Position numbers and translations under genes: made by a program. The notes beneath the pieces are model-generated. The model was not told the DNA's origin, ran no database searches, and was given only the letters and a program-made list of their open reading frames with translations. Below, one piece after another: positions 9,819 to 35,248 of a stretch of DNA of 35,248 bases. The DNA is from Sphingobacteriaceae bacterium (lineage in GTDB: Bacteria; Bacteroidota; Bacteroidia; Sphingobacteriales; Sphingobacteriaceae). The stretch spans positions 1 through 35,248 of the forward strand of contig CANKAT010000027.1 of assembly GCA_947479815.1 (NCBI GenBank), read 5' to 3'. The first letter of the stretch is position 1, and each line of letters starts with the position of its first letter.

Positions 9819-9824
9819 TTGCCG

Positions 9825-10899: not shown

Positions 10900-10903
10900 C
10901 TGT

Positions 10904-12095: not shown

Positions 12096-12117
12096 GAATT
12101 CTTAGATCAAAGAAAAA

Positions 12118-12300: not shown

Positions 12301-12325
12301 GGTTTTAAATTTTATTTTTTTTATG

Positions 12326-12396
12326 AGGTCAGGAGCGGATTCGAACCGCTGTAAAAGGTTTTGCAGACCTCTGCCTAGCCACTCGGCCACCCGACC
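12326..12396 (-). tRNA. tRNA-Cys (GCA)
   Basis: The 71-nt gene folds into a full cloverleaf: acceptor stem GGTCGGG/CCTGACC with one G-T pair, anticodon loop CTGCAAA (anticodon GCA), and T arm AGCGG TTCGAAT CCGCT. The discriminator base is U, as expected for tRNA-Cys. The CCA end is not encoded. Confidence 0.96.
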
Positions 12397-12447
12397 TTAT
12401 GTAAAGGATTGCAAAAGTAGCAAATTATTATTGCTACCCAACAATTT

Positions 12448-13191: not shown

Positions 13192-15554
13192 ACCTTCTCT
13201 GCCGTAGTTGTTTACCTGCAAGTATACTGCTTTTGTTCCTAATATTTGCCGGCTGTAATGCATCCAAGTATCTGCCCGAAGATCAGGCATTGGTTAAGAA
13301 AGTTAGGTTACAGGGGGTAGATAAGCAATTTTTAGAAACTGCACTAACCTTTGTTCAGAGTGATATTCGCCCCAATTCAAGACAGAATCTGGCTTTATAT
13401 AATTTTTTCAATACTCGTAGAGGAAAATACCGTACCGACAGGATTAAAGCAATTGGAGAGGCTCCGCATGTCCTTGATAGTTCATTATTGGAGATATCAC
13501 GTGTTCAGATTGAGAAATTCCTTGCCTCAAAAGGGTATTTTAATGCCAAAGTAAAAAGCGACCTGAAGATTAAGAAGCAAAATGCCGAAATTAACTTCAC
13601 GGCTGATATTGGTTCTGAATTCAAAATCAAGAAAATAAGTTTCGAAATTGAAGATACCACAGTTTCTGCTCTTTATCTGGCTAACCGTGATAAGTTTACC
13701 CGTTTACAGGAAGGAAAGCGCTTCGACTCAGATAGCCTTGCCTATGAGCGGGAACAGATATACAAACTAATGAAGCAGCATGGTTATTATGATTATGTTA
13801 GGCAGTTTGTGAGGTTTGATGTGGATAGTAACCTGCTTAACAATGAAGCTAATCTTAGATTATTTCTTGCAAATCCTGCAAATAAATCTGCGCATCAAAC
13901 CTATACTATTGATAATAGTGTCCTAACTATTTCTAATAGCAATGGACTAAATGCCGGACTAAAGACTGACACCGTTGCAATTGATTCACAATTTCATTTT
14001 GTTGATTATTCTGGAAAATTTAATGCTAAGCCAATTAGTCGTTATATTTATTTAAAGAAAAATGATCTTTATAATATTGATAATGAGGAAGTTACTTATG
14101 ATCGTTTGTATGATTTTAATGTTTTTAGAAATTTGAAGATTGAGTATCAGAAGTCAGGCGACAGTACCTACAAATTAGTACCGAATTATTCGATTACACC
14201 ACTTAAAAGGATGAGTAACAGGGTTGAAGGTGAATATACTTTTAATTCAGGACGGAATGGATTCAATATTGGAAATACGTATACCAATCGAAATCTATTT
14301 GGGGGTGCCGAACATCTAGAAATTAAGGCAAAATATGGAATATTTTTCAATGCAGATGGAAGCGGCAATGTTTTTGACCGGGTATTTAGCCGCGATCTTC
14401 AGCTGGGAGCAAATCTGGTTATACCGAAATTATTCGTTCCATTCAATATCCCCTCAATGGGAAGAAATGGGATACCACGTACCACAATTTCAAGTAGTTT
14501 CCAGCTTTTTGATCAAAGGCAAGCCTTTTCAAGCAGGGTCTTTATTAATTCTATAATTTATGATTGGGTAGAAACTAAAACTAAGCTACACTCTTTCACG
14601 CCTATAAATATTGAATTCAGGAAGGGAAAACTTGATCCTGTATTCAGGGATAGTTTAATTCAGAGAGGCTTTGAATTATATGTCAGGACCAACGATAGGC
14701 GTTTTTTCAATTTGGGAAGTCAGTATGCTTTTACCTCTAATGCTATTAAGCTAAATACGTATAGTAATTTTTTATATTTCAAAGGATCAATTGACGCAGC
14801 TGGCAATTCGCTTGGATTATTGAATAAGATAGTGAACTTCAATGTAGATAATGATGGTTTCAGAACTATAATGGGATTACCTTATCAGCAATATTTAAAG
14901 ACAGAAATAGACCTTAGATATTATTGGTCATTTGGTGGAGAGAAGCAATTGGTGGCTCGTATTAACCCGGGTGTTGGTATTGCTTATGGTAACAGCGATC
15001 AATTAACTTTTGAGAAGAATTTCTTTGCAGGTGGATCAAGTGGAGTAAGAGCATGGCAGGCACGTACTTTAGGTCCCGGTAATTACAATAGAGCTATTCT
15101 GGGGAGTGATGGCAAGGCAGATACATTGAGAGCCAATCTGCGTAATCTCGATCAGTTAGGAGAGATTAAAATGGAGGGTAATTTGGAGTATCGTTTTAAG
15201 ATAGCAGATAATATTTTGAATGCAAAAGTCAAGGGAGCAACTTTTGCAGATATTGGAAACGTTTGGAGACAAAAACAAACTGTTGAAAATCCGGGTGGTG
15301 AATTTAAATTCAATCAGTTTCTGGGTCAGCTTGCAGTTGGAGTTGGCGCTGGTTTACGTTTTGATCTTAACTACTTTGTGTTCAGATTCGATGCTGGTAT
15401 CAAGGTGAAAGATCCACAATTCACGGGTTCAGATCAATACGTAATAAAGCATCTATTTAATAAAAAGCAATTTAAACTCGATTATTCAGAAACGCATCGA
15501 CCAGATATTTATCGCTTTGTGCAGTATAATTTCGGTATTGGTATGCCATTTTAA
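13182..15554 (+). CDS. BamA/TamA-family outer-membrane lipoprotein
   Basis: The 790-residue protein starts with TTG at 13182. No ATG or GTG lies between the upstream in-frame stop and the signal sequence, so TTG is the only start that keeps the leader. The leader ends in a lipobox (LIFAGC, Cys25). POTRA-like regions follow (for example SKGYFNAKVKSDLKI and QHGYYDYV). The C-terminal half (about 390-790) is a 16-strand-type surface-antigen/D15 barrel with NRNLFGGAEHLEIKAKYG, FFAGGSSGVRAWQARTLGPG and a terminal YNFGIGMPF. The family inserts or translocates proteins, or possibly lipids, at the outer membrane. Lipidated TamA/TamL-like versions are typical of Bacteroidota. The 3' end converges with the next gene, with a 9-bp gap. 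Confidence 0.9.
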   Translation: MKSYLLCRSCLPASILLLFLIFAGCNASKYLPEDQALVKKVRLQGVDKQFLETALTFVQSDIRPNSRQNLALYNFFNTRRGKYRTDRIKAIGEAPHVLDSSLLEISRVQIEKFLASKGYFNAKVKSDLKIKKQNAEINFTADIGSEFKIKKISFEIEDTTVSALYLANRDKFTRLQEGKRFDSDSLAYEREQIYKLMKQHGYYDYVRQFVRFDVDSNLLNNEANLRLFLANPANKSAHQTYTIDNSVLTISNSNGLNAGLKTDTVAIDSQFHFVDYSGKFNAKPISRYIYLKKNDLYNIDNEEVTYDRLYDFNVFRNLKIEYQKSGDSTYKLVPNYSITPLKRMSNRVEGEYTFNSGRNGFNIGNTYTNRNLFGGAEHLEIKAKYGIFFNADGSGNVFDRVFSRDLQLGANLVIPKLFVPFNIPSMGRNGIPRTTISSSFQLFDQRQAFSSRVFINSIIYDWVETKTKLHSFTPINIEFRKGKLDPVFRDSLIQRGFELYVRTNDRRFFNLGSQYAFTSNAIKLNTYSNFLYFKGSIDAAGNSLGLLNKIVNFNVDNDGFRTIMGLPYQQYLKTEIDLRYYWSFGGEKQLVARINPGVGIAYGNSDQLTFEKNFFAGGSSGVRAWQARTLGPGNYNRAILGSDGKADTLRANLRNLDQLGEIKMEGNLEYRFKIADNILNAKVKGATFADIGNVWRQKQTVENPGGEFKFNQFLGQLAVGVGAGLRFDLNYFVFRFDAGIKVKDPQFTGSDQYVIKHLFNKKQFKLDYSETHRPDIYRFVQYNFGIGMPF

Positions 15555-16941: not shown

Positions 16942-18060
16942 TTAAGGTAAAATTAAATTACTGATCAATCCATCCTGATCAAGACTGATTATAGTATTGC
17001 TTCCTTCCTCTCTGATACTAATGAGAAACTGCTTACTATTTACTTCAAGATTGAGACTGTTCTTTTTTCCGTTTATCTGAATATCATTTTCAGGAACTTT
17101 TAGTTCATTCAGACTTGAAGCGTATTTTTTATTTTTTTTCAAGTATTCTTTCTGCTTGTAATAGGCCAGCCATAAGTATTGACGTTGTTTTTCTGAATAG
17201 GGAAGAACAAATGTTTGAACACTAGTATTAGGAGTGTTTTCAGAAAATAGGGTATATCCCCATCTTTCCGGATAATGCATATTGATTATACCCTGTGGGC
17301 TCCAGCATGAATAATGAGGAGGGTAAGCCTTTCCGGTACTATCTAATGCTTTGGAATAAACTCCATCTTTTACTAAAAAATCAAAATTAGTTCTCAAAAA
17401 GTTGATTCTGAGATTCGTATTTTGTTTCGCATCTTTTGGATTAAAATTGAACGCTGAAAGTGGTAAGGCAATCTCTGCAGTCCACCCATTATCAATATCC
17501 TCTGCTTTGTTGATCGTCCCGTTTATTTTAACAGCTGATTGGATTCCTATAGGTATCCATCCGCTAACCGGAACACCAGCATCCCTGTAAGGCTTATTCA
17601 TGATCAAAAAGAGCATGTTATTTTGAGGATTAATCTGTATCTCAAAATCATCATTCATAGAATTATCGGGGTCGATAAAAATCTTAAAAACATTATCTCG
17701 GAATATAATATCTTTTTCAGGTTTAGTATTGGCCCAAACATGTGGCTCCTGTAATTGAGCAGCGATGTATAGATATTTTTCATCCCAAAGCATCTTAACC
17801 CTGGTTTTAGTTGTAGGAATAGGTTTAAGATCTCCTTCAATGTCTACAAAAAAGTCTGACCATCGAGTATCAAGCCATGCTTTTTCATCCAGTTCTCCAT
17901 CAATTTTTAGTATAGTCTTAGTATGAAATAAAGTATAGGCTTTGGGTTCTGAAAATAGATTTTCAATCCCTGTGAATGGAGATTGTGCAAATAAGTTAAT
18001 AGATGCAAAACAACCTAATGATATGATTATTAGGCTTTTTAAATTGATTTTTGCTTGCAA
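16942..18060 (-). CDS. Exported carbohydrate-binding family 9-like protein
   Basis: The 372-residue protein starts with TTG at 18060, the only start that preserves the signal peptide (about 1-26, LFAQ). An in-frame TAA lies six codons upstream. The CBM9/DOMON-like beta-sandwich occupies about 45-265: ILKIDGELDEKAW, TRVKMLWDEKYLYIAAQLQEPHVWAN, DNVFKIFIDPDNS, GWTAEIALPLSAFN, and the closing SCWSPQGIINMHYPERWGYTLF. In related proteins this fold binds sugars or heme in the extracytoplasmic space. Residues 290-372 form a less conserved tail. The protein may deliver a glycan-degrading activity; no catalytic motif is apparent. Confidence 0.85.
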   Translation of the reverse strand: MQAKINLKSLIIISLGCFASINLFAQSPFTGIENLFSEPKAYTLFHTKTILKIDGELDEKAWLDTRWSDFFVDIEGDLKPIPTTKTRVKMLWDEKYLYIAAQLQEPHVWANTKPEKDIIFRDNVFKIFIDPDNSMNDDFEIQINPQNNMLFLIMNKPYRDAGVPVSGWIPIGIQSAVKINGTINKAEDIDNGWTAEIALPLSAFNFNPKDAKQNTNLRINFLRTNFDFLVKDGVYSKALDSTGKAYPPHYSCWSPQGIINMHYPERWGYTLFSENTPNTSVQTFVLPYSEKQRQYLWLAYYKQKEYLKKNKKYASSLNELKVPENDIQINGKKNSLNLEVNSKQFLISIREEGSNTIISLDQDGLISNLILP

Positions 18061-18137: not shown

Positions 18138-18949
18138 CTACCAGTTATATCGTAACAATGCTATAACAGGTAAATGGTCTGATGCATAATGCTCCTGAAC
18201 CACTTTATGTTCAATGGTATTAAATGGGTTGCCTGTCCGGAAGGCGATAAAATCAATTGTCCTATTGGGTTTTACTACAGGGAATGTTGGGTCACATTTT
18301 TGACAGGTACGGGTAAATACTTTGTCCATTTTTTGTATTGCCGATGATTCCTCCACAGCGTTCAGGTCGCCTGCAATGATAAATGGTAAGGTTTCTTTCA
18401 ACGCTATCCGATTAATTTCTTCCATTTGCACCTCTCTGTTAACCGACATATTTAAGTGATCAAGGTGCGTGACTCCAAACCTGATGAATTTCCCATTTTT
18501 AAGATCGATTTTTGCCGTTGCAAGAACCCTAGGCTCCCCACCGGTATCTTTTATTTAGTTAAATGAGTTGTTTTTGCCTCTGAAATAGGGTATTTGGAAA
18601 GAATACATACTCCATAATCTCCACCATCATGGTCTATAGCCTTTGCAAAATAAAAATTCATTTTTAGGCTTCTTGCAATGTTTTCAGCCTGATTAATCTT
18701 TCCTGATCGGTTGGTATTAACATCTACCTCCTGTAAAGCTACAAGATCTGGATTTTCTATTTTTATTGCTTTGATTATTGCTTCCATATCTATAATACCT
18801 GGCTTTGAAGGCGGATTTCCGATATGAATATTATAGCTCATGATTTTTAAAACTCTGCCTGGAACTCTATTTTTACCGCGATTTTGGTTTTTAGATACCC
18901 CGCAAGCAGTTAGAATTAAAAGCACATAAGCGAAAATAAGTACTCTCAT
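18138..18949 (-). pseudogene. Endonuclease/exonuclease/phosphatase-family lipoprotein, frameshifted
   Basis: Two consecutive pieces together make one EEP-fold protein. The first (18949-18551) has a lipobox leader (LILTAC, Cys16), MSYNIHIG (N40) and ALQEVD (catalytic Glu74), and stops at TAA just after THLTK. The second is in another frame and open from about 18548 to 18138. It reads KDTGGEPRVLATAKIDLK, GVTHLDHLN, IIAGDLNAVEES, TIDFIAF and YASDHLPVIALL. All EEP catalytic motifs are therefore present, but adding one base near 18548-18555 (in aaataaaa) is needed to join them. It is either a recent pseudogene, a sequencing error, or a programmed shift. The closest relatives by motif are exported nuclease/phosphatase/sphingomyelinase-type proteins. 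Confidence 0.8.
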
Positions 18950-19090: not shown

Positions 19091-20440
19091 ATGAAATCTA
19101 AATTTATTTTTCTTCTAACCTTATTATGTTCAATCAATGTTTACGCTCAGCCTGGTGAAGGTAAATGGGAGAACTTGTTTAATGGTAAAGACCTGATCGG
19201 TTGGAAGTTATTGGGTGGAAAGGCTACCTACGAAATTAAGGATGGAGAATTAGTAGGAACCACAGTATCAAATACTCCTAATTCATTTCTGTCAACCGAA
19301 AAAGAGTATGGAGATTTTATTTTGGAGCTTGAACTTTTAGTGCATCCATCTATGAATTCGGGAATACAGATTAGAAGTCTGAGTAAGAAGGAATACCAGA
19401 ATGGAAGAGTTCATGGCTATCAGGTAGAAATTGACCCGGCTGCCCGTGCATGGAGTGGTGGAATTTATGATGAAGGAAGAAGAGGCTGGTTATATAACTT
19501 GGAATTGAATCCTGCAGCAAAAACTGCTTTTAAAAATAATGTTTGGAACAAATACCGTATTGAATGTATTGGTAATAGCATCAGAACCTGGGTGAACGGA
19601 ATTCCTGTGGCACATTTAATAGATGCTGAAACCAGTAAAGGGTTTATCGCCATGCAAGTTCATGCAATTCCTGCTTCAGAACCAGCTGGTAGGCAAGTTA
19701 GGTGGAAGAATATCAGAATTCAAACAGGTAAATTAAAACCTTCTGCACCAGAACCTATTTTTGTTGTCAATACAGTGCCAAACGATTTATCCCAATCTGA
19801 AAAAAGTTTGGGTTATCGTTTATTATGGGATGGAAAATCAGAAAAGGGCTGGATAGCTGCTAATAATGAGATATTTCCAAAAAATGGCTGGAATATTCAG
19901 GATGGTGTTTTATCTGTACTTAAAGATCAGAAAGGTCAACCAGCAGCGGGAGGTGACATTGTTACTACTAAAGAATTTGCTTCATTCGAATTGAAGTTTG
20001 ATTTCAAATTGGCTGAAGGTGCAAATAGTGGATTGAAGTACTTTGTGAATACGTTCAATGGTTCTGCTCTTGGATTGGAATACCAGATTCTAGATGATGA
20101 AAAACATCCAGATGCCAAGCTGGGAATAAAAGGTAACCGAACATTGGCTTCTTTGTATGACTTGATCCCAGCTCAAAAAGTACCGGCTTCAATTAAAAAG
20201 GTGGGTGAATGGAATCAAGGAATGATCAGAGTATTACCTGACAATAAAGTGGAACATTGGTTAAATGGCTATAAGGTTCTTGAGTTTAATCGTGGATCTG
20301 ATGAATTCAAATCATTTATTGCTCAAAGCAAATTTAAGAATGTACAAGGATTTGGACTTTCTTCAAGAGGAAAAATTATGCTTCAGGATCATGGAGATGA
20401 GGTTTCTTTTAGAAGTGTGAAGATAAAAGAACTGAAATAA
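19091..20440 (+). CDS. Exported protein with two DUF1080 (3-keto-disaccharide hydrolase) domains
   Basis: The 449-residue protein has a signal peptide (1-20, VYAQ) and two concanavalin-like DUF1080 domains. The first (about 25-215) opens with WENLFNGKDLIGWKL and contains NSGIQIRS and VHGYQVEID. The second (about 240-449) opens with YRLLWDGKSEKGW and contains ANSGLKYFVN and LGLEYQILDD. Both keep the family's N-S-G and E-I-D/Y-Q-I-L elements. DUF1080 proteins have been linked to hydrolysis or lyase cleavage of 3-keto-glycosides in the periplasm. Whether both domains are active here cannot be told. It is divergent from the EEP/CBM9/TraB group, and no oxidoreductase that would generate 3-keto sugars lies beside it. 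Confidence 0.88.
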   Translation: MKSKFIFLLTLLCSINVYAQPGEGKWENLFNGKDLIGWKLLGGKATYEIKDGELVGTTVSNTPNSFLSTEKEYGDFILELELLVHPSMNSGIQIRSLSKKEYQNGRVHGYQVEIDPAARAWSGGIYDEGRRGWLYNLELNPAAKTAFKNNVWNKYRIECIGNSIRTWVNGIPVAHLIDAETSKGFIAMQVHAIPASEPAGRQVRWKNIRIQTGKLKPSAPEPIFVVNTVPNDLSQSEKSLGYRLLWDGKSEKGWIAANNEIFPKNGWNIQDGVLSVLKDQKGQPAAGGDIVTTKEFASFELKFDFKLAEGANSGLKYFVNTFNGSALGLEYQILDDEKHPDAKLGIKGNRTLASLYDLIPAQKVPASIKKVGEWNQGMIRVLPDNKVEHWLNGYKVLEFNRGSDEFKSFIAQSKFKNVQGFGLSSRGKIMLQDHGDEVSFRSVKIKELK

Positions 20441-25041: not shown

Positions 25042-25914
25042 TTAAAAAATACAGGGATTGGATTCAAATCCTTTTGCATCCACTTTAAGACAAAAGGTAT
25101 TTCCACTTTCTGGATAACGAGCAAGATCTTTTTGATTCAGATCGCCTTTGGCTGTGGTTATGACCAAATGATCTAGGTTTTGGCCTGCAAATGTACAGGA
25201 AGTAACGTAAGGGGCGGGAATTTCAATTTTATCCAATAGAGAACCATTCAATGGGTTCCATTTATAAATACCGTATCCACCCCAGTGTGCAATCCATAGC
25301 ATTCCTTCCTGATCGATGGTCATTCCATCAGGGATTCCTAGTTCTGAAGGAATTTCGATTGCATTTTTTTCAAATCTTATTTCTCCGGTTTTTTCATTAA
25401 AAATAAATGATTGAATAACCCGTGTTGGACTATCAATAAAGTAAAGTCTTGAATTATCCGGTGACCAAGATATTCCGTTTGAAATAGTAAGATCAGTTAA
25501 TACTTTATTGATTTTCAGATTTTTATCAATGACATATAAAGAAGCAGCACCCTGTTTAAAGGTCTTATGCATAGAACCTATCCATAATCTTCCCTGGCTG
25601 TCGCACGCAGCATCATTGCAACGTATATCTTTATTTTCAGTTTCGATATCAAGGATGGAATCCAGTTTTGCAGACACTGGATCAAAGCGTCCGATACCAC
25701 CGTTTAATCCTAAAATAAGTGAATTGTTCTGACCTATTACAACCATAGCGACCTTAAAATCAAAGGTCCATGATCTAGTAGATTTATTGATCCAATGATA
25801 TTCAAATAGTATACCACTTTCAATGTCAACCCAATAGCAGCAATTTTTTACAGCATGCCAGATTGGGCCTTCTCCAAGTAGGCATTGTGATGGATATAAT
25901 ACGCTTGCTTTCAT
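25042..25914 (-). CDS. SMP-30/gluconolactonase family protein
   Basis: The 290-residue cytoplasmic beta-propeller matches the regucalcin/SMP-30 family. Metal ligands are visible as E15 (CLLGEGPIW), N146 (ISNGISWSPD) and D196 (GIPDGMTID), with the substrate-binding N100 in IRCNDAACDSQGRLWIGSM. The family hydrolyses sugar lactones to aldonic acids. It is the last gene of the minus-strand cluster, 40 bp after the SDR gene and followed by AT-rich DNA. With the SDR and IlvD/Edd-type genes it forms a coherent oxidative sugar route; the sugar itself cannot be named. Confidence 0.93.
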   Translation of the reverse strand: MKASVLYPSQCLLGEGPIWHAVKNCCYWVDIESGILFEYHWINKSTRSWTFDFKVAMVVIGQNNSLILGLNGGIGRFDPVSAKLDSILDIETENKDIRCNDAACDSQGRLWIGSMHKTFKQGAASLYVIDKNLKINKVLTDLTISNGISWSPDNSRLYFIDSPTRVIQSFIFNEKTGEIRFEKNAIEIPSELGIPDGMTIDQEGMLWIAHWGGYGIYKWNPLNGSLLDKIEIPAPYVTSCTFAGQNLDHLVITTAKGDLNQKDLARYPESGNTFCLKVDAKGFESNPCIF

Positions 25915-25954: not shown

Positions 25955-26722
25955 TCAATACGGAGAAGGACTAATACATGACCATCCTCCATCAATTACA
26001 AGACATTGACCCGTAATTTGTTTTGCTTGATCAGATACAAGGAACAGTGCTGAATCTGCAATATCTTTTGCTGTGGATGGCCGGCCGGTAGGAGAGAGCC
26101 TTGACCAGGTTGCTTCATATTCTGGGTCGTCAAGCGTTCGCTCGGTCATTGTTGCACCTGGTGCTATGGTATTCACATTTATTTTATAAGATGAAAGTTC
26201 AATAACCAGGTTTCTTGCAAGCATTTCTATTGCCGCCTTAGTCATGGCATAAGCAGCCAAATTTTTGTGGGCTTGATGACCTGTTACGGATGATGTGAAT
26301 AAAAGTGAACCTCCTGAGCCCTGTTTGATCATTTGCTTCGATGCTGCTTGTGCCAGGAAGAAAGTCCCTGCCAGGTTAACCTGCAAAACAGCATTGAATG
26401 ATTCAGGGCTATAGGTTAAAAAATCACCGAATAAGGTAATGCCTGCATTGGCGATAACTATATCCAGTTGTTTGAAATCTTTTACTGCCAGATCAACCAT
26501 GCTCTGTATAAATTCCAGATTGCTGGAATCTCCTGATAGAGCGATGCAAATGCCATTTTCTTCCCTGATATTTTTTGCGGCATTCTCAGCTAAATTGGAG
26601 TCAAGATCATTAAGTATAACCTTAGCCCCCTGTAGTGCCAACTGTCTGCATATTTCAAATCCTATACCTTGTCCAGCACCGGTTACAATAGCTACTTTAT
26701 TTTCAAAAGGTTTATTTGACAT
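25955..26722 (-). CDS. SDR-family oxidoreductase (probable sugar dehydrogenase)
   Basis: The 255-residue classical SDR shows the cofactor motif TGAGQGIG (14-21), an acidic D39 after strand 2 that favours NAD, and NAG (92-94). It also has N116, S144/S145 and Y158-x3-K162 as the catalytic set. The C-terminal ITGQCLVIDGGWS is typical of the fabG/glucose-dehydrogenase-like branch. Between a lactonase and a sugar-acid dehydratase, the likely role is oxidation of an aldose to its lactone. Oxidation of a 2-keto-3-deoxy acid, as in fucose-type pathways, is an alternative. The gap to the dehydratase gene is 15 bp, so the two are almost certainly co-transcribed. Confidence 0.93.
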   Translation of the reverse strand: MSNKPFENKVAIVTGAGQGIGFEICRQLALQGAKVILNDLDSNLAENAAKNIREENGICIALSGDSSNLEFIQSMVDLAVKDFKQLDIVIANAGITLFGDFLTYSPESFNAVLQVNLAGTFFLAQAASKQMIKQGSGGSLLFTSSVTGHQAHKNLAAYAMTKAAIEMLARNLVIELSSYKINVNTIAPGATMTERTLDDPEYEATWSRLSPTGRPSTAKDIADSALFLVSDQAKQITGQCLVIDGGWSCISPSPY

Positions 26723-26737
26723 AGTATAATTTTGAAT

Positions 26738-28450
26738 TTAATGAGAATCTCTTGGTACCTCGCTGCCAGATCCTCCCTTTAGGAAGTGGAAATCTGCGCC
26801 TAAATGAGCCTGTTCAACATTATTGATGTAAAGTCCGGTATACCCTCGGTCAACTAAGTTTTTAGGTTTGATCCATTTCTCTTTTCTCGCATTTAATTCT
26901 GCATCACTGAGATCAACATTCAGGCTTCTTGCCTCTAAATCAAGTGTAATAATGTCGCCTGTTTCCAGAACACTAAAGTTTCCTCCAAGAGTTGCTTCGG
27001 GCGATACGTGTAAAACCACTGTTCCGAAGCCTGTTCCGCTCATCCTACCATCAGATATTCTAATCATATCTTTAACCCCTTTTTCAATTAGTTTCAAGGG
27101 TAAGTTCATATTTCCAACTTCAGGCATCCCTGGATATCCTTTTGGGCCTACATTCTTCAATACCAGAACACTGGTTTCATCTACTGGCAAGTCAGGGTCA
27201 TCGATCCGGGCTTTGAAGTCTTCAATGTTTTCAAATACTACGGCTTTGCCGCTGTGTTTGAATAAATGTGGACTAGCAGCAGATGGTTTTATAACCGCGC
27301 CATTCTCGCAAATATTGCCTTGAAGTACTGCTAGAGCAGTTGCGTTGTTAAATGGCTTATCAAGACTTGCAATAACATCTTGGTTAAAGCAACGTGCATT
27401 TTTGTAATTTTCAGAGATCGTTTTGCCATTTACGGTAATACACTCTTTGTTTAGGAAAGTATCCAGCTCCTTTAAAAGGGCTGGAAGTCCGCCGGCATAG
27501 TACAGATCTTCCATGAAAAACTTCCCTGAAGGCTGCAGATTTGCCAGAAGTGGAATAGGAGCGGATATTGGGTCGAACTCTTGCAGTTCGAGAGGCACTC
27601 CAATCCTTCCTGCAATGGCGGTTAGGTGGATCACAAAATTGGTGGATCCCCCTATTGCTGCATTTACTTTGATCGCATTTTCAAATGCTTTTTTAGTCAA
27701 AATATCAGATGGCTTAAGGTCTTCTTTTACCATGTTCACTATTCTCCGGCCTGATAACTGTGCCAACACCTTGCGGTTTGAATCTGCGGCAGGAATTGCA
27801 GCATTCCCAGGTAGGGTAAGGCCGAGCGATTCTACCATACAAGCCATTGAAGATGCAGTACCCATAACAGCGCAATGACCGCGGCTTCGGCATAAACCGG
27901 CCTCAGCTTCATTTAATTCATCTTGGGTCATTAAGCCTGCCCTAAGATCAGTTGTGAAGCGCCAAACGTCGGTTGTACCTATGTCATTGCCCTGATATTT
28001 TCCGGTAAGCATTGGTCCGCCAGATACAACAATAGTCGGAATATCTACACTGCAAGCCCCCATAACTAGGGCAGGGGTAGTTTTATCACAACCGCACAGT
28101 AATACCACTCCATCTAATGGATTTGCTCTAATCGACTCCTCTACGTCCATGCTGACTAGGTTTCTGAATAACATGGCAGTAGGTTTGATTAGGGTTTCAC
28201 CTAAAGACATTACAGGAAATTCAACCGGAAAACCACCGGCTTCCAGAATGCCCCTTCTAACTGATTCAGCTAGTTCACGGAAATGTGCATTACATGGAGT
28301 AAGTTCTGACCAGGTATTGCAAATGCCAATCACTGGCTTACCCTCAAATTCATCAGCAGGAATACCCTGATTTTTCATCCATGCACGGTATATAAAGCCA
28401 TCTTTGCCTGTCTTCCCAAACCATTGTCGGCTGCGTAATTTTTTATCCAT
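26738..28450 (-). CDS. IlvD/Edd-family sugar-acid dehydratase (arabinonate/xylonate dehydratase-like)
   Basis: From the ATG at 28450 (the upstream extension is unsupported) the protein has 570 residues. It starts KLRSRQWFGKTGKDG and ends HFLKGGSGSEVPRDSH, which is the pattern I remember for L-arabinonate dehydratase and related pentonate/hexonate dehydratases, not dihydroxy-acid dehydratase IlvD. The likely [2Fe-2S] ligands are C53 (NTWSELTPCNAH), C121 (LLCGCDKTTP) and C193 (SRGHCAVMG). The enzyme dehydrates an aldonic acid to a 2-keto-3-deoxy acid. Together with the adjacent SDR and SMP-30 genes it suggests a non-phosphorylative sugar route. No aldolase or keto-acid dehydrogenase for the next step is in the window. 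Confidence 0.93.
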   Translation of the reverse strand: MDKKLRSRQWFGKTGKDGFIYRAWMKNQGIPADEFEGKPVIGICNTWSELTPCNAHFRELAESVRRGILEAGGFPVEFPVMSLGETLIKPTAMLFRNLVSMDVEESIRANPLDGVVLLCGCDKTTPALVMGACSVDIPTIVVSGGPMLTGKYQGNDIGTTDVWRFTTDLRAGLMTQDELNEAEAGLCRSRGHCAVMGTASSMACMVESLGLTLPGNAAIPAADSNRKVLAQLSGRRIVNMVKEDLKPSDILTKKAFENAIKVNAAIGGSTNFVIHLTAIAGRIGVPLELQEFDPISAPIPLLANLQPSGKFFMEDLYYAGGLPALLKELDTFLNKECITVNGKTISENYKNARCFNQDVIASLDKPFNNATALAVLQGNICENGAVIKPSAASPHLFKHSGKAVVFENIEDFKARIDDPDLPVDETSVLVLKNVGPKGYPGMPEVGNMNLPLKLIEKGVKDMIRISDGRMSGTGFGTVVLHVSPEATLGGNFSVLETGDIITLDLEARSLNVDLSDAELNARKEKWIKPKNLVDRGYTGLYINNVEQAHLGADFHFLKGGSGSEVPRDSH

Positions 28451-28522
28451 TTCTATTAATATTTGTGCCTTAGCGTTGCAAGTTAGAAAAAACAATAAAT
28501 TTTAGATCCGATTAAAACAAAC

Positions 28523-29368
28523 TTAGTCTTTCTTGCCTTTAATATATTTTGCTACAGTACCCACAGGTGCAAGCCAGATTCCATTTGCCGGGTTTTGAGC
28601 ATATTCAATCAGCTTTTTCAGCATGCTTAGTCTGGTGGTTTGATTTCCGGATGCACCCATTTCATGGCCGGCAAGAACTAACCAGGCGCCGCTTTTTTTT
28701 GCATTTTCGATCAGTGGTAAAATTTGGTCAAAATCTTTACCATCCATTTCCATCCCTGTTAACTGGGCAAGATCACAGAATTGAGGTGCATTTGGACCTT
28801 CGTCTAGCCAGCCTCTGCCACTCAGAAATAGCTTGGATACAACAGGAACGTAGCTTTTTGTATTTTTTCCTCTGCCGATATAGGTTTGCCCGCAAGGATA
28901 AGCAAACACCTCAGCCTCAACTCCAAGTAATTCCTTTATGGCCTTATTGGTCAGAATTAATTCATTCTGCATTTGTTTCAGTGTATAATTTTCAATAGCC
29001 TTTTGTCTCGACCATGGGAAATTACCGGTACAGGGATGGTTGAAAGAATGATTCCCTATCTCATGACCACTGGCAACCGCTTTCTTCCAGCCTCCTAGTC
29101 TTTGCTTAACAGAATTTGGAACCACATAGAACGTGGCTTTAACTCCATATTGATCGAGCAGTGCTGTTCCTGCATCCACCTGACTTGCCCGGGCATCATC
29201 AAAACTTAAACTGATGGCTATTTGCTTTCCCTCAGGCCAGGTAAATGTTGATTCAGCTTGTTGAGCAAATAGCATTTCACTAGAAAGAAAAATAGATAAT
29301 ACAATTAGAAATAATTGCTTATATGAACAAATTATAGTTCTTTTTAAGATTGTCGGGAATGATTTCAT
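28523..29368 (-). CDS. Exported polysaccharide deacetylase (CE4/NodB-type)
   Basis: The 281-residue protein has a signal peptide (to about residue 35, LFAQ) and a NodB homology domain. Motif 1 is SLSFDDAR (D57, D58), motif 2 is HSFNH (H107, H111), motif 3 is FAYPCGQTY (about 155-163), and a late histidine sits in VLAGHE (H235). These are the metal ligands and catalytic residues of the family, so it should be an active deacetylase of an acetylated glycan or amino sugar in the periplasm or at the surface. It lies between the sugar-isomerase-like gene (47-bp gap) and the dehydratase gene (72-bp gap) in the minus-strand cluster. Confidence 0.92.
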   Translation of the reverse strand: MKSFPTILKRTIICSYKQLFLIVLSIFLSSEMLFAQQAESTFTWPEGKQIAISLSFDDARASQVDAGTALLDQYGVKATFYVVPNSVKQRLGGWKKAVASGHEIGNHSFNHPCTGNFPWSRQKAIENYTLKQMQNELILTNKAIKELLGVEAEVFAYPCGQTYIGRGKNTKSYVPVVSKLFLSGRGWLDEGPNAPQFCDLAQLTGMEMDGKDFDQILPLIENAKKSGAWLVLAGHEMGASGNQTTRLSMLKKLIEYAQNPANGIWLAPVGTVAKYIKGKKD

Positions 29369-29415: not shown

Positions 29416-30270
29416 CTAATTGACTTTATTATATAATTCCTCGAAATATTTCTTTCCCGCAATCACTTCAGCCAGATTATTTTCCATTTTGTGCTCACAT
29501 TCAACATGAATCACACCCTTAAAACGCTGACGTTTTAGTTCATTTATAATAGCGGGAAATTTAATTACACCTTTGCCTATAATTACATCATTTGCATCCG
29601 GGTTGTCAGATTGATGAATGTCTTTAAGATGGACTCCAAGTATTTTCCCTTCCAGTTTTTTTAGACATTCTGCAGGATTTAAACCGCTTCTTTCCCAATG
29701 TCCCAGATCCGCACATACACCAAAATTGGGATGGTTTTTTAAAGCTGCAAGTACTGAATCTGGATGCCAGTACATACTTTTACCTTTTGCATGTTCGTGA
29801 ATCGCAATTTTTATTTTATATAAACCTGCTAGGCTGTCGAGCATGTCCCATGATTTCTTTTCAGGTTCACATACCAGGTGTTGCATATTCATTTCTTTAG
29901 CCAGCTCAAAATAATGCTTCCAATCGGCTTCATTTTTAGCACCACTAACATACATGGATTGCATTTTGAGATTTTTTTTATTGAGCATTTCCTTCATTTT
30001 GCGGATGTCATTTTTTGTTGTCGAAGCCATCGTTTTGCCATTGAAGTCGTTCCCTAGATTATGGAATGAAAAACCTTCTACATAATTTACTCCGGCAATT
30101 GCTGCCTTATCAAGGGCATCAGCGAATGAAAAGCGGTTGAAAGAATACAAGGCTACTCCCATATTCCATTTTGCATTTTGAACCTCCGATTTCTTTGAAC
30201 TTTCCGCAAATCCAATGCATAATACAGAGAGAAAGCATAAATACCAGAGGTTATTTTTTAAGATTTGCAT
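29416..30270 (-). CDS. Exported sugar isomerase/epimerase-like TIM barrel
   Basis: The 284-residue protein belongs to the xylose-isomerase-like TIM-barrel family (AP_endonuc_2 type). Probable metal ligands are E135 (VCEPEKK), H158/H160 (AIHEHAKG), D188 and H191 (CADLGHW), H214 (VHLKDI) and E257 (HVECEH). Unlike the cytoplasmic enzymes it has a hydrophobic leader (8-22), so it is probably exported. Periplasmic members of this family occur near keto-sugar-processing genes in Bacteroidota and Planctomycetes. The substrate is not known. It follows the first ceramidase-fold gene by 26 bp. Confidence 0.88.
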   Translation of the reverse strand: MQILKNNLWYLCFLSVLCIGFAESSKKSEVQNAKWNMGVALYSFNRFSFADALDKAAIAGVNYVEGFSFHNLGNDFNGKTMASTTKNDIRKMKEMLNKKNLKMQSMYVSGAKNEADWKHYFELAKEMNMQHLVCEPEKKSWDMLDSLAGLYKIKIAIHEHAKGKSMYWHPDSVLAALKNHPNFGVCADLGHWERSGLNPAECLKKLEGKILGVHLKDIHQSDNPDANDVIIGKGVIKFPAIINELKRQRFKGVIHVECEHKMENNLAEVIAGKKYFEELYNKVN

Positions 30271-30296: not shown

Positions 30297-32069
30297 TTAT
30301 TTCTTTTGAACCAGACTTAGTTTAATTTCTCGAAGGTCTAACATTCCAGCTTCTACAGAAGTCTTGTTTGATTTGAAAATAATTTTCTGTTTGCCCGGTT
30401 TAAGTTTGATTGTTCCTATATTTTTTGTCTTGAAAATTTCCCAGGAACCGCTGCGGTCAATAGTTCCAATCAGTTTTTGTTTACCAGCTTCGAGCAGAAA
30501 CTCATTTCCGGCTGTTTTATCAGAAACTGACCACACCAGTTCGGCATTGTATTCACCTTCAAAATCAACTTCAACATCCCACTCAACCCTGTCTAAATTC
30601 GTAAACCATCCAAAAGCCCACCACTCAGGCATATATTTAATTTTCGGTCCAATTCCCTTTCCATGTCGGGCAGTTAGTCTGAGCATGCCATCGGTTTCTG
30701 TTTTCACGATTGTGGGTCTGTTTGCTGATTGTGGCTGGAAGGAGGGTGTGCTCTTCATTTCTCCCTCCAGATATCCCAGGACAGCTTCTTTTAAATGTTT
30801 TTCCACGACAGGAGTATAGGGTGAAACGGTTTCGATTTCATATCCTCCATGCTTCCATTCTTTTTCTGTGGGAAGATATCCAAGCCATCCATTTGTATAT
30901 CCATAGAAAAATGTAAATGGAAACGGAGAGCGATCCCGAATCTCGTTTGAGATCTCACAAAATAATTCAACCGGCAAACTCCATATAGCCACATCTTCAT
31001 TAATCTTAAGGAACCTTGCTGGCAGCAGCACCTGATGGTCTCCATTCGCTGAGGTCTGGCTATATCTCGACAAATCCTTAGGCCAGCTTAAATTGGGTTT
31101 TCTCGGGGTTTCTATGATTAGGGATCCTGTAAATAACTTAATATCAGACCTGCTGGATACAATTTCTTTATTAGCCGATAGAATCTTGTCTCCTAAGAGC
31201 ACCTTGAATTGACTTAGATGTCCTGCCTGGGGATTTGGATAGACACTGTAAATAGGAGCCAGATTACCTGCTGCACCATTGATGAATAAAAGAGGAACAC
31301 CTAGTTTTTGTTCTACATATTCAGATACGATTCCGGGAGCATCCCCACTAATCTCAGTTTGAGCAGGGCCAAGCACTGTTCCATGGATCGCATAATTTGC
31401 AATCAGTGCAAGCGGACTTCCATCTTCTTTATCGAGACGTATTAAACCAATTTTGCGGTCAACAGCGCCTTCCGGATTTAATCCAAGAGATGATTTCCCA
31501 TCTACATCTATTGCCCGCCGATTAATATTTGCTTGCGAAAAACCCCAGCCAACACCCAGTTTAGCTTTAGCCAGTTTGCTTCGGGCTTCTATAATTCCTT
31601 TTATCAGGGAGCGTTCCACCAGAGAGGTATATGCTGTATCTACATCATGCTTATAACGATCACCCATAAATACTTCGGGTAAGCCCGGAACTCCAACCTC
31701 AGGAGCGGAGTGGGTGTGTGTTAATGTCCACCAAAAATTTTCGGAATCAATACCCAGATCTTTCTGAAGAATAGCTGCAACATGGTCATATTCGGAAGGA
31801 GACATGACACAAATGTCTGTTGACACCAAAAAGAATTGCTTCTCGCCATCATCCATTGCCACGATCCGATGGTAAATACGGTCATGAATCCCAGTTGATT
31901 TTCTTGCTGCATAACCCAATAACATTTTCGGTTCATCGGGTGTTATATCCATTTTAACCACAGAGGCCCTGAATCTTTTTGATTGAATTGCATTTTGTTG
32001 GGCATAAATTAATTGTACCGAAGAAAGCAGTAAAATCAGGAAAATAAAATTTAATTTATTGTTGATCAT
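30297..32069 (-). CDS. Neutral-ceramidase-fold exported protein, copy 1
   Basis: The 590-residue protein has a signal peptide (1-23, IYAQ) and a neutral/alkaline ceramidase N-terminal domain. Signature elements are ASVVKMDITPDEPKMLLGY (about 35-53), the zinc site THTHSAPE (H118, H120), IHGTVLGP (H229) and GDAPG. A distinct C-terminal beta-rich part follows (about 480-590: GEYNAELVWSVSDKTAGNEF, TIDRSGSWEIF, LKPGKQKIIFKS), which looks like a carbohydrate-binding or beta-sandwich module. At the position corresponding to the catalytic serine of true ceramidases (G-N/D-L/V-S-P) I read GNLAP (268-272). It has a tandem paralogue upstream at 32183-33625. Ceramidase activity is therefore doubtful. Confidence 0.88.
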   Translation of the reverse strand: MINNKLNFIFLILLLSSVQLIYAQQNAIQSKRFRASVVKMDITPDEPKMLLGYAARKSTGIHDRIYHRIVAMDDGEKQFFLVSTDICVMSPSEYDHVAAILQKDLGIDSENFWWTLTHTHSAPEVGVPGLPEVFMGDRYKHDVDTAYTSLVERSLIKGIIEARSKLAKAKLGVGWGFSQANINRRAIDVDGKSSLGLNPEGAVDRKIGLIRLDKEDGSPLALIANYAIHGTVLGPAQTEISGDAPGIVSEYVEQKLGVPLLFINGAAGNLAPIYSVYPNPQAGHLSQFKVLLGDKILSANKEIVSSRSDIKLFTGSLIIETPRKPNLSWPKDLSRYSQTSANGDHQVLLPARFLKINEDVAIWSLPVELFCEISNEIRDRSPFPFTFFYGYTNGWLGYLPTEKEWKHGGYEIETVSPYTPVVEKHLKEAVLGYLEGEMKSTPSFQPQSANRPTIVKTETDGMLRLTARHGKGIGPKIKYMPEWWAFGWFTNLDRVEWDVEVDFEGEYNAELVWSVSDKTAGNEFLLEAGKQKLIGTIDRSGSWEIFKTKNIGTIKLKPGKQKIIFKSNKTSVEAGMLDLREIKLSLVQKK

Positions 32070-32182
32070 GAATATTTATTTTGATTAAAAACACAGTATA
32101 ATAGATTCATTTATGCTTAATTTTTGCATTATTTTAATAATACTAGGGTTAATCAGGATTTTCAGGATATTGAACTATTTAT

Positions 32183-33625
32183 TTATTTTTTGATAATCGG
32201 CTTATATGATAATGGCAACAAATCATGAACGCTTTTAACAATCAGATCCTCAATAATCTCCTGGAAACGTCCTGGTTGATTATAAGAGTACATGGAAGAT
32301 TCGACTTCGTAGCCACCTTCTCTGATAACTCTTTTGGATGCGATATAACATGGGACATCATTAGAATAAGCACTTACCCATAAACGTCCTGGAGCTAATT
32401 CCTTTTTAAGTCTTAGGGAGTAGTCTACTACTACTTCACCAGCTAGAAAAACCATTGCCAAATCATTGCCAAATGTCCAAGTAGTAATAGGGTAGTTAAG
32501 ACTTTTTGGAATAGATTCTCCGCGGGCTATTTTATCAAGAGTAAGTTTTGCAAAATAGGCTTTTGCTCCTTTTTCATTGGTTTGTTCTACAAATTCCTGG
32601 ACAGTTGGAATGTGTTCAAAAGGAAGCTGGATTACCTTAGTGCGGCTCATTGGAGCGGAGCTTATTGGCTTTAGCTTAGATGCCAGAAGTTTTTGTACTT
32701 CGTCAGCAACCTCTCTGCCATGTTGAGCAGCATAATCAAGTTGGAGATTGGTAACCCGCGGTTCAGGATTAGCATCAGCTCCGCAACCTAAAGAAACCAT
32801 GGCGATAGCGCCAGGGTTTTTTTCCTCAATAAATTTTTGTGCTTCTCCAATCCAATCGCCATGAATTTTATTAATATCAGGACCTAATGTTGTACCATGA
32901 CAGGCGTATGAAACCATCACTGCTCTAAGTTTTCCGTCCAGGTCTGTAATGCTTAATAATGGGAGAGCGTGATCAACCGGTCCTTCAGGGACGGGTGTCA
33001 TCCCCACTGATTTTCCATTTACAATCTTGCGGCGGTTCATTGCGAACCCCACTTTTCCTTGACCCCATGCTACTTTGGCTGGTTTTCGTGCATTTAATGC
33101 CTCTATACTTACTTGCTCTAGCTTTTTAGTTAGTGTTTCTAAATAGTTATCAATTCTTCCTATTTCTTCTGGTGGTAATTGCCTTGCAAAGTGATTTAAC
33201 AGATTGCCGATCTCAGGACCGGTATGAGTATGAGAAGCACTAATAACAAAGCGTGAAGGATCAATCCCTATTTTACCGGAAAGGCGCCTTGCAACTTCTT
33301 TTGTCATGTAGTATTGTATACCTATCAGGTCTACCGTAATAAGAATAGATGGACCTTCACTATCACTTCCAAAAGCAATTGCTTTGGCTTTAAGTGGTAG
33401 AATAACCCCCTCAGATTCTGACTTACGTCCACCATAACCTGCTAGTAGGATTGGCCCATCTGGTGTTATATCTATTGCAGAAATACCCACAAGCATACTT
33501 CCTTTTGGCGATTTTGATTTGGAAGATGTGTTTGATTGTGCAGCTACTTTCTGTGAAGAAAAAATACTATTCAAAACCATTAAGATTAAAAAAATAGTAG
33601 GTATTAATTTTTGCCTTATCTGCAT
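32183..33625 (-). CDS. Neutral-ceramidase-fold exported protein, copy 2
   Basis: The 480-residue protein has a signal peptide (1-30, AAQ) and the same fold as its downstream neighbour, without the extra C-terminal module. Key elements are VGISAIDITPDGPILLAGYGGR, the zinc site SHTHTGPE (H132, H134), CHGTTLGP (H243) and FLAGEVVVDYS. The nucleophile loop reads GCGADANPEPR (281-290), with Asn where active ceramidases have Ser. From memory, the GCGADxNPxPR form is common in exported relatives from planctomycetes and Bacteroidota that are annotated only by fold. It lies 42 bp after the cytochrome gene and 113 bp before copy 1. Confidence 0.88.
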   Translation of the reverse strand: MQIRQKLIPTIFLILMVLNSIFSSQKVAAQSNTSSKSKSPKGSMLVGISAIDITPDGPILLAGYGGRKSESEGVILPLKAKAIAFGSDSEGPSILITVDLIGIQYYMTKEVARRLSGKIGIDPSRFVISASHTHTGPEIGNLLNHFARQLPPEEIGRIDNYLETLTKKLEQVSIEALNARKPAKVAWGQGKVGFAMNRRKIVNGKSVGMTPVPEGPVDHALPLLSITDLDGKLRAVMVSYACHGTTLGPDINKIHGDWIGEAQKFIEEKNPGAIAMVSLGCGADANPEPRVTNLQLDYAAQHGREVADEVQKLLASKLKPISSAPMSRTKVIQLPFEHIPTVQEFVEQTNEKGAKAYFAKLTLDKIARGESIPKSLNYPITTWTFGNDLAMVFLAGEVVVDYSLRLKKELAPGRLWVSAYSNDVPCYIASKRVIREGGYEVESSMYSYNQPGRFQEIIEDLIVKSVHDLLPLSYKPIIKK

Positions 33626-33667: not shown

Positions 33668-35248
33668 TTAATTTTTCCGTAAAAAAGCCAGTAGATCTGC
33701 CATTTCCTGCTTATTGATCTTCTTTTCAAATCCTGATGGCATTGCTGATGCATTGAGACTTTTTATTGACTTTATATCTTGACGGTTGATGGTTTTATCA
33801 AGCTTCCCATTATTTCTAAGAGTTAATGCAGTAGAAGTTTCGCTTGATATGATTCCCTGAGCGAGTTCGCCATTTTTCAATTCTACTTCCCATAAATCAT
33901 AACCACTTGAAATGGAGAGATTTGGATCAAGAATGTTAGCCATAATGTCTTCTCGTGTCCAGTTATGAACAGTACCCATATCTGGGCCGAATTCTACACC
34001 TATTTTCCCCCTTACTTGATGGCAAATAGCACAATTCTGAATAAAGACCGCATTCCCATTTGTAACATTTCCTTGGATTTCCAATGCTTTTTTAAACTCT
34101 TTATTTACTTTTTTACCATCTTCATCATCTTTGGTAAATAGCTTTCTGGCTCTATTGCGCAGATTTTCATCCGTATTTTGCATAAGCCCAACACTTCTTC
34201 CAAAACTTACACTACTGGCTTGAATTTTATTTGTTTCAATAGCAGTTAATAGTAGCTCAATTCGATCCTGCTTATCTTTACCTAGAAATGTGCCAATTGC
34301 TGCCTCCCTTATTTCGGGAGTTAGTACTGGCCATTGTTTGATAACATACTCACTAAGGGTAGTAGTTGGAATTTTGTTTAAAATTTTTAATGCTGCTAAT
34401 TGTATTATTGGTTGCTCTTGTGGAACTATTAATTGTTTCAATACCGTTGAATGTGGGCTTGGATCAGTTAAAGCAATGAAATTTATAGATTCAGTTCTGC
34501 TTTTATCTGATAAGCTACGATTGGTAGCAATTTTTAAAACGCTTTGAATGGATTTATTTTTGAGTGATTCATCTTTTAACCCAATTACTCTTAGCATTTC
34601 TAGTGCAGCTTGCCTGACTTCTAGGGTTGGATGGTTGAAAAATGTACTTACCAATAAACTTTGATCTCTATCAAATAAAGAAATAGATTCTGGCAATTTC
34701 GACTTTCTGGAATCAAGTCCAAGTGCAAGTCCATCTAGCATAGGTCCTTGCCATGCATTCTGTTTATTTACAACTAATGAAGTTGATTGTTTGATCAGTT
34801 TATCAATATCTACTTGACTCCCACTAGTACCAACCATTCTTGTTAATTTTTGAACCAAAGAAGCATATTCAGGAACATCAGTACGATAATTCTTTAAAAC
34901 AACTTTCAATAAGGGGGCTATTTGGGATGGGGGAGCAGATAAAGCAGCAATTTGTACCCACTTATCTGTTACATCTTTGAATAAAATTTCATTTCTAACA
35001 CGGGCTGCCTCACTGCTATTTAGGTATCCTAGTGTTAATAATAATTGAAATCTCACTTTTGCATCACTATCTTTTTGAAGGCTAAGAAGTACTTTAGCTA
35101 ATTCAGGTGATTTTGATAAATGTAATTCAGCAAGTTTGATAGCGTTTGTGCGTACCCCTGCAATTTCATCTTTTAGTGCAATTTGTATTAGCTGGGAGGA
35201 AAGCTCTCCCAAACCTTCTAATGTCCATAAGGCATGAAGACGCCCTAA
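33668..35248 (-). CDS. HEAT-repeat c-type cytochrome (PVC-type heme-binding protein), 5' end outside window
   Basis: The frame is open to the window edge, so the N-terminus is missing; 526 codons are visible. The first visible residues (LGRLHALWTLEGLG) are the family's usual stretch leading into the repeats. About 370 residues of HEAT-like helical repeats are followed by a c-type heme site, CAICH (encoded at 34033-34019), with EFGPDMG and a C-terminal segment ending MADLLAFLRKN. This is the C-terminal layout of the putative membrane-bound dehydrogenase or heme-binding proteins named after planctomycetes. The missing N-terminal part is usually a propeller-type domain. It could pass electrons from sugar or glycoside oxidation in the periplasm. 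It is the first gene of the visible cluster. Confidence 0.88.
   Translation of the reverse strand, partial: LGRLHALWTLEGLGELSSQLIQIALKDEIAGVRTNAIKLAELHLSKSPELAKVLLSLQKDSDAKVRFQLLLTLGYLNSSEAARVRNEILFKDVTDKWVQIAALSAPPSQIAPLLKVVLKNYRTDVPEYASLVQKLTRMVGTSGSQVDIDKLIKQSTSLVVNKQNAWQGPMLDGLALGLDSRKSKLPESISLFDRDQSLLVSTFFNHPTLEVRQAALEMLRVIGLKDESLKNKSIQSVLKIATNRSLSDKSRTESINFIALTDPSPHSTVLKQLIVPQEQPIIQLAALKILNKIPTTTLSEYVIKQWPVLTPEIREAAIGTFLGKDKQDRIELLLTAIETNKIQASSVSFGRSVGLMQNTDENLRNRARKLFTKDDEDGKKVNKEFKKALEIQGNVTNGNAVFIQNCAICHQVRGKIGVEFGPDMGTVHNWTREDIMANILDPNLSISSGYDLWEVELKNGELAQGIISSETSTALTLRNNGKLDKTINRQDIKSIKSLNASAMPSGFEKKINKQEMADLLAFLRKN

Follow-up and report, generated by a model that had tools for sequence, protein, structure and literature searches.

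Two neighbouring genes near one end of a 35,248-nucleotide stretch of DNA from a Sphingobacteriaceae bacterium (contig CANKAT010000027.1, hereafter the window, which is an entire contig of a 3.2-Mb genome) encode proteins related to the neutral ceramidases. We call them CerA (copy 1; 30297..32069, minus strand; 590 amino acids (aa)) and CerB (copy 2; 32183..33625, minus strand; 480 aa). In our proposal neither is a ceramidase; both are probably exported hydrolases that use zinc and serve a carbohydrate pathway, and they belong to a large bacterial and archaeal sister group of the neutral ceramidases. The proposal is based on the fold of CerB, the active-site residues, the clade structure of the family, a C-terminal module common to several proteins and the operon in which the two genes lie. 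From these observations we infer export, a bound zinc, a water nucleophile and a carbohydrate substrate. As to the bond cleaved, our first guess would be amide or ester deacylation and our second the opening of a lactone or some other bond.

The original prediction of two ceramidase-fold open reading frames holds: both are complete on the minus strand and both match PF04734 (Ceramidase_alk) above the Pfam cut-off of 32.1, with 66.5 bits for CerA (residues 37-256) and 44.0 bits for CerB (residues 45-270), the match being limited to about 220 residues in each. The sole convincing sequence relatives in the PDB are the neutral ceramidases CerN of Pseudomonas aeruginosa (2zws, 2zxc) and human ASAH2 (4wgk); by phmmer, CerA finds 2zws at E 1.5e-7 and CerB finds 4wgk at E 1.9e-7. 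The NCBIfam model NF041649 scores 38.9 bits for CerA and 21.7 for CerB against a cut-off of 1200. Since P. aeruginosa CerN itself reaches only 530.9, this cut-off cannot decide the matter and was dropped as a rule. CerA consists of a ceramidase-type catalytic domain followed by a C-terminal module and CerB of a ceramidase-fold catalytic domain only; each begins with a signal-like N-terminus, as judged by eye. The key residues are R56, H118, H120, R184, R185, H229, A271, E368, Y398 and Y410 in CerA and R67, H132, H134, R198, R199, H243, N286, E397, Y427 and Y439 in CerB. Judged from the alignment, the metal-site residues of both proteins appear intact.

The loop that reads GNLSP in P. aeruginosa is GNLAP in CerA (31254..31268, minus strand) and GADANP in CerB (32765..32782, minus strand). 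Both had been predicted to replace the serine loop, and alignment to the P. aeruginosa and human enzymes bears this out: the column of Ser274 (P. aeruginosa) and Ser354 (human) holds Ala271 in CerA and Asn286, not Ala285, in CerB. The loop aligns without gaps to GNLSP for CerA by phmmer, for the CerB group by a 64-sequence profile and for both by MAFFT; phmmer with CerB alone ends before the loop, and the placement of CerB comes from the profile and MAFFT. Because phmmer (for CerA), the profile and two MAFFT runs agree on the residues, chance or a misaligned loop is ruled out.

The nucleophile of the neutral ceramidases is a zinc-bound water. The original prediction gave this role to the serine, whereas a review of the human structure assigns Ser354 the role of stabilising and positioning Arg257 (PMC6952831). 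The same review describes His196, Arg257, Tyr579 and Tyr591 as critical for catalysis and the crystallised construct as residues 99-780 (PMC6952831). With human numbers taken as chain position plus 98, a mapping by our own count from that construct, the 4wgk profile alignment puts His196 on the second His of HTH, Arg257 on the Arg of NR, Tyr579 on the Tyr of HYI and Tyr591 on the Tyr of RYE. CerA keeps all four (H120, R184, Y398 and Y410), and so does CerB (H134, R198, Y427 and Y439). The zinc ligands we take to be the first His, a later His, a Glu and a Tyr, which would be H118/H229/E368/Y398 in CerA and H132/H243/E397/Y427 in CerB. The histidines named in the original prediction (H118/H120/H229 and H132/H134/H243) are correctly numbered and all present, but H120/H134, the second His of HTH, matches human His196 and is not one of these presumed ligands. 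A serine relocated elsewhere was not seen, since none of the columns that at least 85% of 157 relatives share in the sequence alignment is a Ser. The inference of a metal-dependent reaction other than ceramide hydrolysis is thus likely right in its conclusion, but the missing serine does not carry the argument. Nor do the differing replacements in two neighbouring copies, since the copies are only about 25% identical, fall in separate clades and stand together in only 3 of 11 loci. Stronger grounds for another substrate do not depend on the serine: extra arginines, the lack of an immunoglobulin (Ig)-like C-terminal domain, a module with the fold of carbohydrate-binding modules (CBMs) of families 6 and 35, and a carbohydrate operon.

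Family members were gathered from 60 related genomes and 296 genomes of the phylum (the window's own genome included in both), from plasmid records and from a scan of named genomes; in two of the genome searches only part of the matches was fetched. After removal of duplicates, sequences below 330 aa and fragments contained in longer ones, 166 sequences remained, or 169 with proteins of Nocardia and Tsukamurella and a twelfth paralogue of the window's genome. In the one scan of named genomes at least 571 stretches encode CerB relatives, and the 80 named loci analysed here are the best 80 of 571, a non-random sample. As these were chosen by CerB-group patterns, Asn is over-represented, which the clustered count (Asn in 57 of 82) corrects in part only. 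Eleven sequences were classed by sequence as ceramidase-type, among which only P. aeruginosa CerN has been tested as an enzyme: the nine-member clade of CerN and the Nocardia and Tsukamurella proteins, the last two being 47-52% identical to CerN over the compared stretch.

The serine column holds Ser in six, Thr in three, Met in one and Glu in one of the eleven ceramidase-type sequences, and is therefore a weak criterion for a neutral ceramidase; the Ser of the 'amidase motif' is unsafe as a marker of activity. (Thr or Met stands there in four of six ceramidase-type proteins from Bacteroidota and Kitasatospora, loci L019-L023 and L064.) The 158 other sequences have Asn in 111, Ala in 18, Ser in 10, Thr in 4, Arg in 4, Lys in 3, Gly in 3, Met in 2 and something else in three. 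The catalytic columns are kept in nearly all of the same 158: His97 in 155, His99 in 157, Arg160 in 155, His204 in 149, Glu411 in 150, Tyr448 in 156 and Tyr460 in 147. With one sequence per 60% cluster (92 clusters, 82 of them not ceramidase-type), the entropy of the serine column is 1.77 bits against 0 to 0.71 in the nine other columns tested, making it the least conserved of the ten. Two arginines separate the groups cleanly. All 11 ceramidase-type sequences read NRS where CerA and CerB both read NRR, and Arg stands at that place in 141 of the 158 others; NRS as a ceramidase marker is a group marker found in this analysis, not one taken from the literature. The column of R56 (CerA) and R67 (CerB) holds Arg in 144 of 157 others and a gap in 9 of 9 ceramidase-type sequences.

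In a FastTree tree of 166 sequences and 449 columns, rooted at its midpoint, several nodes between groups are weak (0.2 to 0.88). The nine ceramidase-type sequences group together (support 0.976). CerA falls in a clade of 15 sequences (1.0), each with Ala in the serine column, and GNLAP is found in all 11 CerA genes of the genus. CerB falls in a clade of 104 (0.964) with Asn in 102, Asp in one and Lys in one. The replacements are conserved and do not look like noise. These separate clades, with the low identity of the two proteins, rule out a recent tandem duplication followed by divergence. The 13 Ser sequences of the tree alignment comprise four of ceramidase type, eight of a group with the loop GDQSP, and one other (L079). 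Ser may be ancestral and later lost, although the tree from which this candidate history is read is midpoint-rooted and its inner nodes are weak.

The GDQSP clade (n=8) is the mirror image of CerA and CerB, having kept the Ser and replaced the zinc ligand His204 by Pro (ACPAQE). Counts in the 169-sequence alignment differ slightly, with 10 Ser and 9 Pro outside the ceramidase type. Four genomes have this paralogue in their CerA operons as a third protein of ceramidase fold, and the operon in the window is without it; GDQSP-type genes lie at L051:12420-14000, L054:12508-14082, L055:4903-6477 and L057:6803-8377, and also in L058, L120 and L122.

The model of CerB predicted from 64 sequences has a mean predicted local distance difference test score (pLDDT) of 93.6. 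With this model Foldseek returned 2zws, 2zxc and 4wgk at E 4e-27 to 7e-25 and nothing else better than 4e-4. VIA-align gave Z 38.9 to 2zws (401 residues aligned, root-mean-square deviation 3.9), then 37.8, and 35.6 to 4wgk, with the next match at 5.2; matches at Z of about 5 and below are Ntn hydrolases and xanthine oxidase. CerB aligns over its entire length to residues 1-490 of the 2zws chain, the catalytic domain, at 17-19% identity over the fold. The catalytic-domain fold of CerN and ASAH2 is thus common to CerB, and CerA and CerB keep every His, His, Arg, His, Glu, Tyr and Tyr of the neutral ceramidases. They differ from them in Ala or Asn for Ser274/Ser354, in NRR for NRS and in the inserted Arg56/67. 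They differ also at the C-terminus, where the human enzyme has an Ig-like domain (PMC6952831), CerB has none and CerA has its own module.

That module (30300..30734, minus strand; residues 446-590) is predicted to have a CBM6/CBM35 fold, with marginal sequence similarity. The usable part of the CerA model (residues 451-590, block mean pLDDT 56-88) matches the N-terminal part of the GH29-like fucosidase FucWf4 (9pnk) at Z 15.8, an agarase CBM6 at 14.9 and CBM35 modules at 13.5-13.8. No Pfam CBM hit in CerA is above its cut-off, CBM_6 scoring 22.7 and 24.0 bits against 28.9 in the relatives L107 and L098, and profile matches in the PDB are weak (2vzp E 0.11, 9pnj 0.28, 2cdp 0.88; 8zvk 0.00019). 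Matches to RecA chains span about 20 residues and were rejected as chance; fold matches to Cry toxins were taken to reflect a common beta-sandwich arrangement. Among the DNA stretches collected for this analysis, CerA-type modules also occur at the C-terminus of four CerB-type proteins, L098 and L099 (Fodinibius), L103 (Segetibacter) and L107 (a Chitinophagaceae metagenome-assembled genome (MAG)), and as a short free-standing protein adjoining the CerA copies of a Chitinophagaceae MAG (L097). In genome G214 the CerA protein is without the module, which is found instead on the polysaccharide deacetylase encoded after it (47% identity over 137 residues). Movement of the module among CerA, CerB-type proteins and a deacetylase suggests that these proteins make contact with the same material.

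In the window, CerB and CerA are followed by five genes on the same strand and preceded by one, with gaps of 15 to 113 bases. The upstream gene, cut by the contig end, encodes the C-terminal part of a protein with HEAT repeats and a c-type cytochrome (33668..35248, minus strand; TIGR02603, 121.9 bits against a cut-off of 68.15); full-length relatives in L054 and L097 have DUF7133 at the start, then HEAT and Cytochrom_C. Downstream of CerA, all on the minus strand, lie a xylose-isomerase-like TIM barrel (AP_endonuc_2) with a signal-like N-terminus (29416..30270), a polysaccharide deacetylase of CE4 type (Polysacc_deac_1) with a signal-like stretch (28523..29368), an IlvD/Edd-family dehydratase of aldonate-dehydratase type (26738..28495), a short-chain dehydrogenase (SDR; 25955..26722) and an SMP-30/gluconolactonase-family protein, a putative sugar lactonase (25042..25914). 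The dehydratase scores 880 bits to PRK06131 (cut-off 539) and 830.6 to L-arabinonate dehydratase, below that model's cut-off of 882, and the closest enzymes of solved structure are dihydroxyacid and L-arabinonate dehydratases. As read by eye from their N-termini, CerA, CerB, the TIM barrel and the deacetylase are presumably exported. No sphingolipid gene stands beside CerA and CerB in the window.

The genus keeps the order HEAT-cytochrome, CerB where present, CerA, TIM barrel, CE4 deacetylase. Each of the 11 genomes of the genus that have CerA has the TIM barrel and deacetylase genes next after it; in G008 these lie on a second contig, which begins within CerA. Ten of the 11 have the HEAT-cytochrome gene upstream of CerA, whether or not CerB is present, and in the eleventh the contig begins within CerB. 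Only 3 of the 11 have CerB itself at the CerA locus. The dehydratase, SDR and SMP-30 genes are downstream in 6 of 11; none was seen within 6.2 kb in L047, and the other four contigs end within about 2.5 kb. Around CerA of G214 are genes for a GMC oxidoreductase, gluconate 2-dehydrogenase subunit 3, Amidohydro_2, an enolase-superfamily protein and a TIM barrel.

In the wider family, fusions and the neighbours of two alphaproteobacterial members also point to carbohydrates. Fusion partners of CerB-type domains are DUF7133 plus cytochrome c (L156), DUF7133 plus HEAT (L133) and DUF7133 (L137), the last two chains being cut by contig ends; a sulfatase (L141) and a glucuronoyl-esterase/acetylxylan-esterase-like hydrolase (L123) are further partners. 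Neighbours were counted by phmmer (one query per kind of neighbour, E 1e-8) within the fetched DNA of the named loci, 79 of 80 once L104 was omitted as a copy of L062. Relatives of DUF7133-HEAT-cytochrome c occur in 16, PSCyt2/PSD1 in 16, the esterase-like hydrolase in 14, DUF1501 in 13, DegT in 11, sulfatase in 10, DUF1080 in 6, Gfo/Idh in 4, CE4 in 1 and the TIM barrel in 1. In the alphaproteobacteria Nitratireductor and Ponticoccus the family gene lies in an amino-sugar-type operon, immediately after NagB-, SIS- and NagA-like genes and ahead of those for a sugar ABC transporter; the NagA-like (189.0 and 192.9 bits, cut-off 225.65) and NagB-like (109.2 and 113.6, cut-off 236.9) proteins fall below the equivalog level and SIS is above it. 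In P. aeruginosa a phospholipase C gene comes after that for CerN, and in Kitasatospora a sphingomyelinase gene after that for the ceramidase; phmmer found relatives of either in none of the 79 loci.

We propose that zinc, held by two histidines (the first of HTH and a later one), a Glu and the GY/CY tyrosine, would activate a water molecule. The active site would be completed by the other His of HTH, by the Arg of NRR and by a second Tyr. The loop residue in the position of the ceramidase serine would merely shape the pocket beside that Arg, and on this proposal each subfamily could fix a residue of its own, Ala in the CerA clade and Asn in the CerB clade. The additional Arg residues, R56/R67 and the last one of NRR, would fit a polar or acidic, sugar-like substrate better than a lipid. 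CerA, aided by its CBM6/35-like module and the CE4 deacetylase, would act outside the cytoplasm to trim a glycan with N- or O-acyl groups or other substituents, and the freed sugar would then be oxidised and catabolised by the dehydrogenase, the lactonase and the aldonate dehydratase.

The nearest alternative, which we regard as rather unlikely, keeps the carbohydrate setting and changes the bond: the zinc site would open a sugar lactone or sugar-acid ester produced by a neighbouring oxidation system (DUF7133-HEAT-cytochrome c, or the GMC oxidoreductase in G214) rather than cleave an N-acyl bond. The DUF7133 fusions in L156, L133 and L137, the HEAT-cytochrome gene upstream in 10 of 11 CerA loci, and the GMC oxidoreductase, gluconate 2-dehydrogenase subunit 3 and Amidohydro_2 upstream of the G214 CerA speak for this alternative, and the extra arginines would suit a carboxylate. 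However, the operon already includes an SMP-30-type lactonase, the characterised relatives are amidases, and DUF7133 is without known activity.

That CerA and CerB are after all ceramidases, or N-acyl lipid amidases that recycle the cell's own sphingolipids and tolerate Ala or Asn for Ser, seems to us improbable, although the fold is the same, the zinc, Arg and Tyr site is complete, and a phospholipase C relative lies near the CerB orthologue of Daejeonella lutea. Loss of the Ser would not in itself disqualify them, since 5 of 11 ceramidase-type sequences have Thr, Met or Glu there. It is the remaining differences that speak against such a role: NRR for NRS and the inserted Arg, the absent C-terminal ceramidase domain (in CerA replaced by the CBM6/35-fold module), the lack of relatives of the two reference phospholipase C and sphingomyelinase genes in 79 of 80 named loci (the exception being L104), the carbohydrate operon, and a distribution in which only 1 of 17 sampled genomes of the same taxonomic family outside the genus has a member, though that family makes sphingolipids. 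A dead ceramidase fold retained for binding or scaffolding is less probable still. A conserved-looking ceramidase active-site residue is indeed missing from both proteins, and the GDQSP sister paralogue of some CerA operons has lost a zinc His, but the strong conservation of the other active-site residues in 158 relatives is unexpected for a dead site.

Several observations weigh against a carbohydrate hydrolase of the kind we prefer. The model of the CerA catalytic domain, built from ten close orthologues, is poor (pLDDT 43.6), having failed because the alignment is shallow, and CerA is assigned to the fold by sequence. With CE4 and the TIM barrel in one locus each of 79, CerA's own partners are not the general company of CerB-type genes, and since neighbours differ among members, one substrate for the whole family is unlikely. 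We know of no function for PSCyt2/PSD1 (16 of 79) or DUF1501 (13 of 79). The Sphingopyxis and Agrobacterium members lie outside recognisable sugar operons, the D. lutea locus (L104, identical to L062) has its phospholipase C relative 6.6 kb downstream of the CerB orthologue, a neighbour that genuine ceramidase genes also have, and Sphingobacteriaceae make sphingolipids.

Extending the carbohydrate hydrolase proposal from CerA and CerB to the whole group is more tentative. The group could be one of misnamed carbohydrate-active zinc hydrolases of ceramidase fold that remove acyl or similar groups from sugars and glycans, with the Ser normally replaced by Asn and in one branch by Ala, and spread over Bacteroidota, Planctomycetota, Verrucomicrobiota, Acidobacteriota, Alphaproteobacteria and haloarchaea. 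RefSeq uses the name 'neutral/alkaline non-lysosomal ceramidase N-terminal domain-containing protein' for such proteins, for example in Nitratireductor, Ponticoccus, Natronosalvus and Agrobacterium. They belong to the same subgroup as CerB, of which 55-93% aligns to the 30 records listed, with identities of about 22-34%. Five of six aligned have NRR, Agrobacterium having NRH; unlike CerB, five of six fetched are without a signal-like N-terminus, as judged by eye. Reading these names literally puts sphingolipid metabolism where it probably plays no part. If the carbohydrate proposal is true, the neutral-ceramidase fold also serves sugar chemistry, a sizeable gene group in planctomycetes, verrucomicrobia and Bacteroidota gains a testable function, and the common module names the CE4 deacetylase as a concrete partner enzyme. 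Among the literature matches listed, from a search with most subscription journals outside it, we recognised no paper on the subgroup of CerA and CerB. A Tenacibaculum paper that mentions a ceramidase concerns a P. aeruginosa-type enzyme, and a Fibrobacter one a GH116 glucosyl-ceramidase.

The source genome has 12 members of the family, with Asn in nine, Ala, Lys and Thr in one each and Ser in none at the serine column; 12 of 19 other genomes of the genus have members (2 to 15 match rows each), as do 1 of the 17 genomes of the taxonomic family sampled outside the genus and 17 of 296 in the phylum sample. CerA occurs in 11 of 20 genomes of the genus, its own included, and outside the genus only in G214 among 395 genomes of the class and as two copies in the Chitinophagaceae MAG of L097. 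Stretch L017 (G000:C1:45000-64900) encodes four more ceramidase-fold paralogues in a row (8062-14558) and a DUF7133-HEAT-cytochrome relative.

Other features of the window include two further carbohydrate-type genes near the operon, one for a protein with two 3-keto-disaccharide hydrolase (PF06439, DUF1080) stretches (19091-20440, plus strand) and one for a CBM9-like protein (16942-18060, minus strand). Between them, an endonuclease/exonuclease/phosphatase gene is apparently split (18138-18949, minus strand), two open reading frames matching the start and the end of PF03372. At the other end of the window, a 1452-aa open frame with a signal-like start runs off the contig (1-4356, minus strand) and looks like a repetitive extracellular protein.

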